This document shows, piece after piece, positions 3,001 through 53,300 of a DNA stretch of 64,000 nt. The position numbers were made by a program, and so were the translations under genes. The notes under the pieces were generated by a model, which saw nothing but the letters and a program-made list of their open reading frames with translations, had not been told where the DNA came from and searched no databases. This DNA comes from Mesostigma viride. Lineage: Eukaryota > Streptophyta > Mesostigmatophyceae > Mesostigmatales > Mesostigmataceae. Location of the stretch: the NCBI GenBank assembly GCA_009746045.1, contig RPFO01000080.1, positions 12,070,802 to 12,134,801 of the forward strand, given 5' to 3'. How positions within the stretch are numbered: position 1 is the stretch's first letter; every line of letters starts with the position of its first letter.

Positions 3001-6000
3001 ATTTCTCAGCAGGCAGTGGTGGTCAATGTGGCTCGCTCTAGTTTCGTTAGCGGATTCTGATAGCGCCTTTTGGATAATCCCATTTCTCCTTCTGAAGCTG
3101 CTCAGTTTTAGTCCCTTTGTTGCCGTGAGAATGCAAATTTATCTGTTCAGGTGTTCTCATTTTGGGGCCTTGGGCCCAAGTGCAGCAAGTGCCCGTTTTT
3201 CCCTGCAAAGAAAGGACCCAATGGCTCGGGCCCCTGCCTGGCCCCCCAGTTCCTGCTATAGAAAATGAATCTGCTTGTACATGTATGCCACCGCACGGTA
3301 ATTTCAGGTCAGGAATGGTATGCGCGTCCTCACGCCGCCGCCGTATCACCCATGCGATGCGTGCTGCCCGTGTACGCTGCGCGCGCGTGCGGGGCCTCCC
3401 ATCGCCCTCACACGCTGCTTTGCTTGTGGTCGCGCATACCCCCATGCGCGCGTGGGTGGACGCGCATCCTTTGCCATTCATGCCATTCATGCCCTCATGC
3501 CCTGTGGCCATCGCGGCACGCACGTGCATGCCCCCCCACGCACACGGCAGCGAGGGTACCCGGGCGTGCGCCAGGAACCTGAGTGGACGACGCAACACGA
3601 CAAGTACCAAGGGACGGTCGACTACATCTGGTAAGGGACGGTCGACTGCATCTGGTAAGGGACGGTTGACTGCATCTGGTTAGGGACGGTTGACTGCATC
3701 TGGTTAGGGACGGTTGACTGCGTCTGGTAAGGGACGGTCGACTGCATCTGGTAAGGGACGGTCGACTACATCTGGTAAGGGACGGTCGACTGCATCGGGT
3801 AAGGGACGGTTGACTGCATCTGGTAGCTAAGCCATACCATTCGGGTCGAAAAGATTGTGTGTGCGGTGGTGGCGGGGTGGGAGGGGCTGGGCCTTGAACT
3901 GTGTTCTGGTGGTTGGTGGTGTTGCTTGTGGTGTTGGAATCGTCGGTAGGGGTTTGGCCCGCTGAAAACTTGGATGATTCCCATTGCCATTCTCGCACCC
4001 GTGGATGATCATAGTACCGATTGTAATGACCATAATGCATGGGTGGTCTCCTTCATGAGATCAATTACGCGTGCTGCGCGGCACCATGGCTGGCCTCCTG
4101 CCTCCTGCCTCACACCAGACACGGGTGGCAGGTTCTATCAGACACGTGTGGGATCAGTTTTTACCAGATCATGGATCGGTCGTATGCCTCTGTTCAGGGC
4201 CGGTGAACGCCCGGCGCCAGGGTGCGCATTTCCACCGACCTCTATGGTTTGGGGCGTGAATGCCTTCTAGACGCTGCACCGACCTTGCCTCACTGCTTGT
4301 TGCTGGCTTATGCATGCGGCAAACCCCAATGGGATGCTTGTTTTGGTTCTAATGCTGCGTCCCTGGAATGTAACTGTTCATAAGTATTCCTGTGCCCCCT
4401 GGAACCTCACCAGGTTTCCATTTCTGTCTCCGTGATGCCTAGCCTCGTAATCATTATTGTAACCAGTATCATTGAGACAGCCAGCGCAGGCCGGAAATCT
4501 GGAGAATCCGGACCATGATCATATTTCATAATACATAGCTCATCATGGCTATCCCATCATCCTGTGCATCAACAAAAATGGCTGCCTGTGGGATTCACAA
4601 CATTCATTTGTAAAGATGGCGTGCGTAAAGATGTCATCGCTTCAATGCCCAGAGGGGAACGCGGCGATGCCCTCGCTCTGGTCCGCGGTGCAACCCGCTC
4701 GCATTCTGAGTCGACCTTCTTCGACCTTACCTAGCTCATGCCATGGTTGATTATAACAGCGGCCCTTCTTCACCCCAATCCTCCTGCCCTGTGTGGCTGA
4801 TCACCAAGTTCATGCCACTGGGGTGTGCAGGCAGCTCCCCCTCGTGGTACCCTGCTCGATCATCACCGCTGCGTTACTTCCCCCCAATCCGCTGTTTCCC
4901 GCCATCATATGTGCGGTGCTGTGCAGGCACTCCCCCTCGCTGGTGCCAGTGCGCGTGCTGGACACACCCACGTGCGCCGAGGCCGACGCAGCGGGCATCA
5001 GCAAGCGCCGGGGGGGGCTGCTCACGGTGCGTGGGTTTGGTCTTTGAGCTCTGCTTGTGTTTATGTGCCTAGTGGTGGGTTTGTGTGCGATGGTGGGTTT
5101 GTAAGCAGGGGTGGGTTTGTAAGCAGGGGCGGGTTTGTCAGCAGTGATGGGTTGTATGCAGGGATGGGTTGGTATGCAGGAGTGGGTTTATATACCTCCT
5201 CTCGTGTGGGGTGGCAAATGCCTGTAGTAATTAATTGTAGATATTTCGTTTTGGAGCTTTCTTTTTCGGCGTTTCCAATTCCTGTGTGGTGATCTAGAGC
5301 ACATTTTTCAGTATCCGCCCGTTTAGGTTCCATGATTAGCGAGTTCATTAGTTTAATAGATCTCGGGAACTTTCCCACGCTGACCTGCACTCTGGCCGCG
5401 TGATGCCACCTCTGCGGCATAGCTGGGACACGAGGGCTGTTGTTGCGGATGGCACGGACGGCACGCCTGCTATTAGTAATCTGGGGACGGATCCGTGCCT
5501 GGTGCCGTGGATGTGATGGGGGAGAGGGCCATGGAATGCCTGGATGACACGAGAATGCTGCGAAGGAAGGGTCATGTTTGCCTCCTTGTTTAGGCTGACC
5601 CAAGTACCTTGTTCAATACACGACAGGTGTCTGTCAGCATGGGTAGGCGAGTATGTCAAGTACTGCAGCCGGGCTGGATAGAAACTCAGCTCCTGTTTCT
5701 GGCGTGGTGGGCTCTCTTCAATTTCAATGCACGCATAGCAGTGCGCGTCTTTTGGATCAGCTAGCTGTGCATTGTAAAAAGCCATATATATATATATTTC
5801 ATGCGCCTCTCTTTAGTTCCGTTTTTTCTCGACAGGATTGCACACGTGGCAAGGGTTTCATAATTGCGTACTTGACCTCCTGTTGTCCACGTCAGGACTC
5901 GCACTGCCCAGCCTTGCTGGCTGCCTGGTTGGTTGGTTGGTTGGTTGATTGTTGTCTGACACTACACATATCATTGCCACCCGGGCATCCTTTGCAGGCG

Positions 6001-50318: not shown

Positions 50319-53300
50319 ATGGTGTCCACCCGTTCCCCTGAGGACAAGGCCCCCCTGCTGGGCACCGGCAATGCGCTGGGCGTGATGCTGCCCTCCTCCA
50401 CCGCCCCATCCCTGGCCACTGTCGAGGTACTGTCCGACAAGCCTGGCGCGAAGGGTGGGAGCAGTCACGGCCTCCACCACCGCACGCGCGATGACAGCGA
50501 TGAGAGTGGGAGTGGCAGTGGCGGCAGCTCCCCCCGCTCCCCCTCTGGCGGCTCCCACCGCAAGTTGACCCTGTTCAAGCTGGTGGCCATCACCTGCGTG
50601 TCCGCGGTGTACGGGCTCGAGGACTGCGTGGGCATGGGCGGGCCCTACTACACCCTGCTCGGCATGCTCGTGCTCGGCGTGCTGTGGTGCGTCCCGACCG
50701 CGCTCATGACCGCCGAGATGTCCTGCATGATGCCCGAGAACGGCGGCCAGATCCTGTGGGTAGACCGCACGTTCGGCCCCTTCTGGTCGTTCCAGAACAG
50801 CTTCATGGTCCTGTTTGTGAACGTGCTCAATGGGGCCACCATGCCTGTGCTGTTCCTGGACTATGTCGAGAAGCTGGTCGGATTCGAGATGAGCTTCCAC
50901 ACGCGCGTGACCGTCGGCGTGGGCATCATGGCCGTGATCGCGCTCATCAACATCTTCGGCTCGGACGTCGTCGGCAAGTTCTCCATGCTCATCTCGACCG
51001 TCGCCACCGTGCCCTTTGTCGTGCTCATCCTCGTGGGGCTGCCGCACGTGGACCTGGAGAAGGTGAGGAGGAAAACAAAAAGAAAGAACGGGCTGGCTGG
51101 TTGCAGGCGTGCAGGAGGGGTCAGGCTGTGAGGAACCGCCGCATCTGCCTGGCTCTAGCATGCTCGCTGTGCTAGTGGTGGGCCTGCACAGGGTGAGGGT
51201 GAGCGAAGAACGGGCGTAACGGAACTCAGGTATCCGGAGCCCCCGTGTGTGGCCATGGGGATCCGTTGCTGCGGTGCCCATGCTGTCACTTGCCACCACG
51301 ATTTGACTTGGTTTTACTGTGCTACATCGCCATCATCGTCGCAATTGTCATCGCCACTATCGTCGCCATCACTGTTGTGGGTATGTTCACCACCTTACCC
51401 TGCCCCCAGCCCCACTCCATCGTCATCCCCATCCCCCTCCCCATCCAGCACCAGGCCACATCGTGCCGTTACACTTCTGTTCTAGGCGTGCCCATGACCA
51501 TTACATTTTTCATCTTTGTGGCTCTTGTGGCTATCGAACAGGCTGTGCCGGCCACCGCTGGCTTGAATTTGCAGTTGCCCTGAGCACACCATCGTTGCAC
51601 CCCACAGCTTGTTTGGCTGGTCAGCGGTTTATCTGTTCTTATCGCCCTGCATTGTTGCCCTTCACGCCTAGCCCCTTCTTCTAGTTCTTCATGTTGCTTA
51701 TCATCTCTAGCGGCTTCATCGGATGCCCTTGCCCTGCCCCACGTATGGCTTCCTCCGTCGTACGATGCGGCACATGCCTCCCCCCACCCCCACCCCCCAC
51801 CCCCACCCCCACCCCCTCTCCTGCTGCCTCCCTTTGCCCATCCACACCTCCCCACCTCCGCACCACCAACCCTGACACTTATACACACGCCCATCTACGC
51901 ATTCGCCCTCCAACCCACACACACACACACACACACACACACACACACACACACCGGCCCACCAAATACAACAAACGAAACAAACAAACAATCACCCCCC
52001 TACACCAGTCGCTGGAGCGGCCGGCCCACTTTGACATGCGCGGCTTCTTCCCGCTGCTGCTCTGGAACTGGGCGGGCATGGAGGGCATGGGCAGCTACGC
52101 GGGTGAGGTGCACAACCCCGCGCGCAACGTGCCGGCTGCGCTCATGCTCTCCATCACCATCATCTTCGCCGAGGTCGTCTTCTCCGTCATCGTGGGCGTC
52201 AGCGTGCTCTCGGCGTCCACCTGGCACGATGGATCGTTCATGCAGGTGGGTGGGTGGTGGCCAAGTGGCAGCATGGCTCCTCGACGCAGGTGGCTGGCGC
52301 TTATCGTGTGGTCATGCCACGAATGCGAATGCCACCCCTGGGTGCTGCTGCGTGCAACCAATCATGCTCGCCATGGCTTGACGTCAATGGTTAGCGACAT
52401 TATGCTCACCAAAGTCAATGCTCCGCAACCAGAAGATGGGCGCAGCAACATGCACGCGTGCTTCTCTGGGCTTCTTTGGGCTCCACATTTCTCTCTTTGC
52501 TCATTCTGGCGCCCGCACATTGCTCTCTTTGCTCATTCTGGCACCTGCACATTGCTCTCTTTGCTTGTTCTGGCGCCTGCACACGCTCCTGCTCCGCTGG
52601 CACACGTCACTGGGTCGCGCACATCATCGGCATGCGGTGACTCTTGGTTCATGCGATTGCTCATGCTTGCACCTGCACACATACATGCACGCGTCCCCAG
52701 GTCGCGCACATCATCGGCGGTCTCAAGCTGGCTGACCTGTTTGCGCTGGGTGCGGCCGTGGGCGCGGCGGGCGAGCTGTGCGCGCTGCTCATGATGGCAT
52801 CGCATATCGTGTACGGCATGGGCAAGGTGAGGAGGAGCTCCGCCACATCAAGGAAATCTATACGCCTTGGCTGCTCGCCTTTGCTGCTCGATGCGTGTTT
52901 TCTGCTCCCACACGCATCTTTCTGCTTACTTCTGTCCGCATTGACTTCGTTGGTTCACGTGTTTAATTACTTATTAAACCTGCCCTGTTCAGTCTCCTCC
53001 CAGGATGTGTACTCTACAAGCATGCATGGATGGACATGTCGTTCAAATATCCGCCGGCAGTGGGGCCTGGTTGCTGCGCATGTTGCCAGTGGGGCCTGGG
53101 TGCTGCGCATGGTGCCCGTGGGGCCTGGGTGCTGCGTGTGTCATGTCGTTGCCTTTGACGTGTCACTGCAACCTTGCCGGATCCCTGCCTGCCACTCCTG
53201 GCCCCCTTTTGTCGGCATGCCCGTGCCAGCACACGGACCGTGTACGCACGTTTTGTAGCGTCGCAGGCGCATTCCACTTATCGTAGGAATCCCGTACGGT

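Follow-up and report, generated by a model that had tools for sequence, protein, structure and literature searches.

Introners, which affect the content of introns, are dispersed families common to different genes. Within the literature on intron evolution (reviewed in PMC3488318), two accounts of tandem duplication stand closest to the pattern considered here. Ma et al. 2016 (PMC4974935) report that the potato RdRp gene gained a new intron and exon segment when a tandem duplication ran across an intron-exon boundary, and they also describe the Rogers 1989 model, in which an intron is gained by tandem duplication of an exonic segment containing AGGT. The subject of the present analysis is a 64,000-nt stretch of the genome of the streptophyte alga Mesostigma viride (hereafter the window; positions 12,070,802 to 12,134,801 of contig RPFO01000080.1, which ends ~2.9 kb past the window, in an assembly of 439.9 Mb in 2,243 contigs), in which the introns of several genes hold copies of their own splice junctions, either exon end plus donor or acceptor plus exon start. 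This pattern is probably the outcome of local direct duplication that hits introns generally, with exon interiors purged and junction-spanning events surviving as the outer splice site keeps the protein.

The potato case and the present one have in common a direct tandem duplication that crosses an intron/exon border and carries splice signals, but the M. viride copies sit inside an existing intron, leave the protein unchanged and affect between a quarter and a third of the sampled junctions. The Rogers model likewise involves tandem duplication near a splice-like motif (e.g., the donor GTAAGGG of the EEP gene described below, generated where two repeat units join), but no new intron is seen here, and the exon-end copies lie beside the donor, whereas the model needs them before the acceptor. 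Intron gain of the Rogers type was rejected, as the copies lie within existing introns and three homologues of the PDH E1 alpha gene show no gap at its 11 joins. In the length of their units, their direct orientation, their arrangement in arrays and their decay, the copies resemble ordinary intronic minisatellites, and they differ from these in that the first or last unit takes in 6-47 nt of exon; many minisatellites that do not touch exons are found in the same introns and in intergenic DNA. Unlike introners, the M. viride copies match their own junction. The relevant passages of the M. viride genome paper (PMC6947507) give a mean intron length of 1,142 nt, state that repeats make up 30.1% of intron space and that transcriptome data went into the gene models, and contain nothing on junction copies. 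No earlier report of widespread junction copies was recognised among the matches listed, and absence from print is not claimed.

Five genes in the window were modelled by hand: an EEP/CCR4-like gene (+), an EF-hand gene (-), a PAP/fibrillin gene (+), a mitochondrial PDH E1 alpha gene (+) and an amino-acid permease/transporter gene (+). The EEP (PF03372, joined gene), permease and fibrillin models are backed by Pfam, the PDH model by homologues, and the EF-hand model by an annotated protein, P0121. Each of the 47 junctions in these models (24 donors and 23 acceptors) was represented by 30 nt of exon and 30 nt of intron, aligned to the remainder of its own intron and compared with 100 dinucleotide shuffles. 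At 15 of the 47 junctions (10 of 24 donors and 5 of 23 acceptors), the best match in the own intron is direct, extends over the exon border and scores higher than each of the 100 shuffles, and two further donors stand at 1/100. The junctions with copies are spread over all five genes (PDH, 9 of 22; EEP, 2 of 6; EF-hand, 2 of 5; fibrillin, 1 of 8; permease, 1 of 6), which confirms the claim of a preliminary description of this DNA that junctions are copied into their own introns, although its title spoke of four genes where its own list covers five. At the scoring of the junction test, the exon part of all 15 copies is at least 14 nt long, and the intron part is just 2-3 nt long in four of them (PDH 7 donor, PDH 10 acceptor, fibrillin 4 donor and EF-hand 2 donor). 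Donors and acceptors did not differ demonstrably in the shuffle test pooled with the fresh genes described below (14/36 versus 8/36, p = 0.20), and no difference is claimed.

The orientation of the copies is direct, as had been stated in the preliminary description: reverse-complement controls reach 0-5% in the distance profile given below and 1 of 72 junctions in the pooled shuffle test. Local repeats in the window as a whole are also overwhelmingly direct (524 direct versus 6 inverted, with 3-7 direct repeats in shuffled controls at a slightly lower threshold), and 160 direct repeats remain once an array beyond 59,400 is excluded. That array, of a 40-nt unit in ~112 copies, occupies 59489-63999 and runs to the window end; lying ~2.9 kb from the contig end, it may be subtelomeric. 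The offsets visible among the intron repeats are 13-481 nt (search range, 12-600).

Four clean tandem arrays have a first unit that is partly exonic (EEP, EF-hand, PDH intron 5 and PDH intron 10), and Tandem Repeats Finder (TRF) reports arrays at EEP intron 2, EF-hand intron 3 and PDH introns 4, 5 and 10. In the EEP gene, an exon with an open frame (3575-3630, plus strand) ends in EPEWTTQHDKYQGTVDYIW at the real donor, 3631, and a 24-nt tandem array (3609-3825; TRF, 9.0 copies; score 99, 0/100 shuffles), whose units consist of exon end plus donor, starts 22 nt inside this exon. The donor GTAAGGG at 3631 arises where two repeat units meet, and GTAGCT follows the last unit (3823); the duplication may therefore have rewritten the donor sequence. 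A copy of an acceptor and exon start is also present in this gene at 4824-4858, with the real exon start downstream of it at 4927 (score 37, 0/100 shuffles; alignment). In the EF-hand gene on the minus strand, whose last exon (FARWSADKLPEPSPPTTESARPPAGASK; 15704-15790) matches P0121, exon end and donor form a tandem repeat with a 58-nt unit at 17123-17294, made up of the unit of the real donor (17276) and two more (TRF, 2.9 copies; score 90, 0/100 shuffles), and a decayed copy of the end of exon 2 with its donor lies at 17872-17922 (real donor, 17994; score 42, 0/100 shuffles; alignment). Intron 3 of the same gene holds a separate array of a 57-nt unit in 15 copies (16169-17026), several frames of which are open and readily misread as coding.

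The PDH E1 alpha gene spans 31433-42654 on the plus strand; its model ends at SL|gtgcgc (42654), the last exon not having been found. A 119-nt duplication at 35975-36214 starts 21 nt inside exon 5 (TRF, 2.0 copies, 94% matches; score 102), a third copy of the unit begins near 36415, and further donors occur at 36115 and 36436. The array at 40281-41396 has an 84-nt unit (TRF, 13.3 copies, 98% matches; score 107), the first of which contains the last 26 nt of exon 10 and the donor, and 11 inner donors are recognised in it by motif. At the donor of intron 4 (34626), 52-nt repeats containing AGGAGAAG plus donor occupy 34672-34816 (TRF, 2.8 copies; score 34, 0/100 shuffles).

Most of the other junction copies are decayed, and head-to-tail arrangement cannot be demonstrated in most decayed single copies. 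In the PDH gene the other copies include a copy of the intron end, acceptor and start of exon 4 at 34314-34377 (real exon start, 34458; score 60, 0/100 shuffles; intron flank 54/66 identical), copies of the acceptor and exon start of exon 7 at 37749-37797 (real exon start, 37890; score 41, 0/100 shuffles) and of exon 11 at 41850-41897 (real exon start, 41945; score 28, 0/100 shuffles; alignment), and a copy of the end of exon 7 with 3 nt of donor at 38147-38174 (real donor, 37970; score 41, 0/100 shuffles). Most sites listed in the preliminary description were recovered. Two were weak, namely the copies of the end of exon 3 plus donor at 33766-33786 (real donor, 33686; score 25, 0/100 shuffles), where the best match falls elsewhere under other scorings, and of the end of exon 8 plus donor at 38862-38911 (real donor, 38778; score 22, 0/100 shuffles), where the reverse-complement score is also 22. 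A third, with 6 nt of exon plus donor at 42124-42156 (real donor, 41999), was marginal (score 26, 1/100 shuffles). The remoter PDH items within 33996-34376 and the one at 41749 lie in repeat families that reach the acceptor. In the fibrillin gene, 47 nt of the end of exon 4 plus the donor recur in decayed form at 26222-26275 (real donor, 25942; score 29, 0/100 shuffles; alignment; plus strand). Most of intron 2 of this gene is filled by an 89-nt minisatellite (21115-23468; 26.5 copies, 98% matches) that touches neither junction. In the transporter gene, a copy of the acceptor region and the start of exon 3, with 18 nt of exon exact, lies at 52600-52631 on the plus strand (real exon start, 52701; score 44, 0/100 shuffles) and has lost its AG.

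At every junction where it could be followed at the protein level, the outer site is the one compatible with the coding sequence, in agreement with the preliminary description. The spliced PDH protein aligns with the three homologues at 65-66% identity without a gap at any of the 11 joins, gaps being confined to the inside of exons 1 and 7 and to the ends. No PDH labelled as that of M. viride occurs among the best 120 of 7,997 homologues, where an identical one would be expected first, and the published M. viride model of this gene may be missing or broken. The EF-hand translation is 100% identical to P0121 (label jgi/Mesvir1) over 69% of the query. P0121 joins GVIDFVE to FARWSADK, so its model leaves out the two extra donor copies of 58 nt as well as the 57-nt array, and at each of the two EF-hand junctions that have copies, exon 2 included, this protein takes the outer donor.

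The same details bear on the idea that the copies have a function, as alternative exon ends or as decoy sites, and are maintained by selection to tune splicing or to trigger transcript decay. In its favor, the printed alignments show that most donor copies keep GT and that 4 of 5 acceptor copies keep AG, and use of an inner site runs into a stop codon in the three cases examined: 1 nt past the real donor in EEP, although the 24-nt unit is a multiple of three, after 48 nt in PDH intron 5, and after 27 nt in PDH intron 10, where the 84-nt unit is also a multiple of three and yet an in-frame stop is met. A gene finder trained on the window also calls several of the copies small exons. However, mismatches in 11 decayed copies are spread evenly over codon positions (19/15/19, p = 0.71), the copies differ widely in age and copy number, and P0121 skips them, all of which makes a selected function very improbable. 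The even distribution over codon positions also means that these 11 copies do not look like coding exons, a possibility that the preliminary description had raised against itself, and duplicated or mutually exclusive exons were rejected on the same lack of coding constraint.

A further proposal is that the copies were inserted, as mobile introners, retrocopies or fragments templated during repair. Some decayed copies are indeed short and separated from their source by tens to hundreds of nt, and in PDH intron 7, when judged by eye, the five bases past the border agree equally well with the donor and with the next exon. By the same inspection, the bases past the border in the copies of PDH 3, PDH 8, EF-hand 2 and fibrillin 4 resemble a donor and not the next exon. 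None of the 47 junction-centred 30-mers matches one randomly drawn intron of another of the five genes at a score of at least 22, a result on which membership in an introner or other mobile intron family was rejected, and in the next bin into the exon the corresponding fraction is 0.06 at a score of at least 22 and 0.00 at a score of at least 26. Repair-templated insertions are expected in both orientations, and the copies are all direct. Insertion is thus the least credible of the explanations considered, and scarcely credible at all.

To set these observations against the rest of the genome, fresh DNA was taken from a 200-kb region ~0.9 Mb away (60 kb of which is N) and from 50 kb adjoining the window. 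Genes were predicted by a small gene finder that had been trained on the window; on the plus strand of the window it detects 20 of the 21 known donors and 20 of the 21 known acceptors, although its predictions number 42 for each kind of site. The predictions kept were a GSDH-type gene, a cyclase-type gene, a Root_cap/VWD gene and one HhH-GPD exon, of which GSDH (PF07995), HhH-GPD (PF00730) and Root_cap are above the Pfam cut-off and the cyclase gene is just below it. The 29 junctions so obtained leave out predictions 1-4, 7, 13, 15 and 16 of the GSDH gene, predictions 1-4, 6, 10 and 11 of the cyclase gene, the HhH-GPD prediction apart from the one exon, and reg1 minus genes 5 and 11; some of the rows left out have matches too (GSDH-gene prediction 2, donor and acceptor; reg1 minus gene 11, exon 5 donor). 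A junction-crossing copy beyond 100/100 shuffles was found at 9 of the 29 junctions, judged by score alone and with some alignments self-overlapping, and at 5 of 29 the copy includes at least 10 nt of exon. The matches are distributed unevenly (GSDH, 7 of 17 junctions; cyclase, 1 of 8; HhH-GPD exon, 1 of 2; Root_cap, 0 of 2), four of the nine hold just 4-7 nt of exon, and at two more junctions 15 and 28 nt of the exon end are copied without the border being crossed. The fresh matches therefore indicate that the pattern also occurs in other parts of the genome, with differences between genes and in a somewhat weaker form than in the window.

The distribution of copies along genes points to duplication as a general property of the introns. 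The fraction of 30-mers with a direct copy in their own intron (score at least 22) is 0.00 at 60-90 nt into the exon (138 windows of 30 nt), 0.02 at 36-60 nt and 0.12 at 20-36 nt, so that copies are nearly absent more than ~40 nt into exons; it is 0.29-0.32 around the junction and 0.29-0.41 deeper in the intron, with inverted copies at 0.00-0.05. Local direct repeats cover 0.20-0.44 of introns, 0.105 of intergenic DNA and 0.027 of exon interiors. With simple repeats masked, an ungapped repeat spans 11 of the 47 junctions versus 0.30 of 3,000 random points in intron interiors and 0.08 of 3,000 intergenic points (EF-hand intron 3 was still unclosed in this count, as in the family count and decay simulation of the window cited below). 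Thus the part of the preliminary description that introns grow by junction duplication stands insofar as the copies are direct, local and junction-crossing, and finds no clear support insofar as it proposed a separate mode unlike minisatellites, the intron interiors being about as repeat-rich.

The explanation favored here would begin with frequent local direct duplication in the non-coding DNA of M. viride, presumably through slippage or unequal exchange. Some duplications would expand to minisatellites and then decay. Those wholly within exons would be removed by selection, and those straddling an exon edge would be kept because the outermost donor or acceptor still yields an intact protein. 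The extra copies would then turn into intron and drift, with the inner copies apparently ignored by the spliceosome. The retention of exon-edge events would leave decoy copies at one quarter to one third of the sampled junctions, unevenly by gene.

Several results weigh against this account, and most of them favor a preference for junctions, by which duplication would start at or near splice sites more often, or junction-spanning duplications would be favored or longer-lived, and introns would grow from their ends. In the window, 12 of 36 repeat families (23 introns) cross a junction versus 4.0 or 1.6 expected under two definitions of unit length, and a simulation in which the exon half decays more slowly yields 7-15%; one of the 12 (transporter, 52212-52297) is weak, with 9/100 shuffles for that donor. 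The pooled shuffle-calibrated test gives 22 of 72 junctions versus 29 of 204 windows in intron interiors (p = 0.004), with exon interiors at 1 of 84. By score class, in 44 window and 24 fresh junctions with introns under 300 nt omitted, copies scoring at least 26 number 19 versus 11.3 expected (P = 0.002), a surplus confined to scores of 26-40 (9 versus ~1.9 expected). At junctions, the slow change of the exon half should keep older copies visible for longer, but simulation of this preservation bias gives an excess of 1.1-1.35-fold at scores of at least 26 and of 1.1-1.3-fold at 26-40, and preservation bias was rejected as the full cause of the 26-40 surplus because this is too small. Fresh families cross a junction in 4 of 33 cases, above the lower of two expectations (0.6). 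Since intron points oversample long arrays, the comparison at high scores leans towards general duplication. In addition, several decayed copies have a recognisable exon part and intron flanks without a significant match, which fits strict tandem duplication only if introns drift fast. A cruder scan of the 50 kb beside the window found an ungapped repeat spanning one junction among 29 listed predicted exons, many of them doubtful.

Other results speak against a preference for junctions. The window was selected for showing exactly this pattern in the first place, and the excess in the shuffle-calibrated test comes mostly from it (16 of 48 junctions versus 16 of 132 interiors); among fresh genes, in which this and the family test were restricted to 24 junctions of closed introns, the numbers are 6 of 24 versus 13 of 72. 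By the other definition 2.5 fresh families would be expected, and 4 of 33 is unremarkable against nulls of 10-15.4% (P = 0.42-0.77); pooled families (16 of 69) give P = 0.001, 0.014 and 0.058 for nulls of 10, 13 and 15.4%. There is no junction excess among copies scoring at least 40 (10 versus 9.4 expected) or near-perfect copies scoring at least 60 (5 versus 8.1 expected). The comparison of junctions with interiors suggested in the preliminary description therefore has a divided outcome in the sampled genes, with no excess per base or point or among near-perfect copies, and an excess in the shuffle test and the window families. A special junction mechanism, as a distinct mode of growth, is not adopted, because the fresh sample shows little or no excess by most measures, though not all. 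As the simulated preservation bias is too small, a junction preference of about two-fold is possible and is not claimed. A preference for junctions is on balance an unlikely explanation of the pattern, and it is likewise doubtful that junction-spanning duplications are about twice as frequent or long-lived as interior ones, that introns grow from their ends, and that, offered about a dozen near-identical donors and several acceptors, the spliceosome dependably selects the first donor and the last acceptor.

Apart from the genes, open frames at 7286-7825 and 28360-29025 look by eye like pieces of LINE-type retrotransposons, and a stretch that begins with CAAGGAGACAACCAGCGCAGGCCAGAAATC is found again near 28130 and 44240.

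The junction copies are a trap for annotation, as the several small exons called by the window-trained gene finder illustrate. The exon half of an old duplication provides a slowly changing reference for the dating of intron duplications. Should between a quarter and a third of the junctions in M. viride have near-copies of themselves, its genome would constitute a natural experiment on splice-site choice, in which PDH intron 10, with about a dozen near-identical donors in a near-identical local context, would serve as a test case for choice of the first donor.

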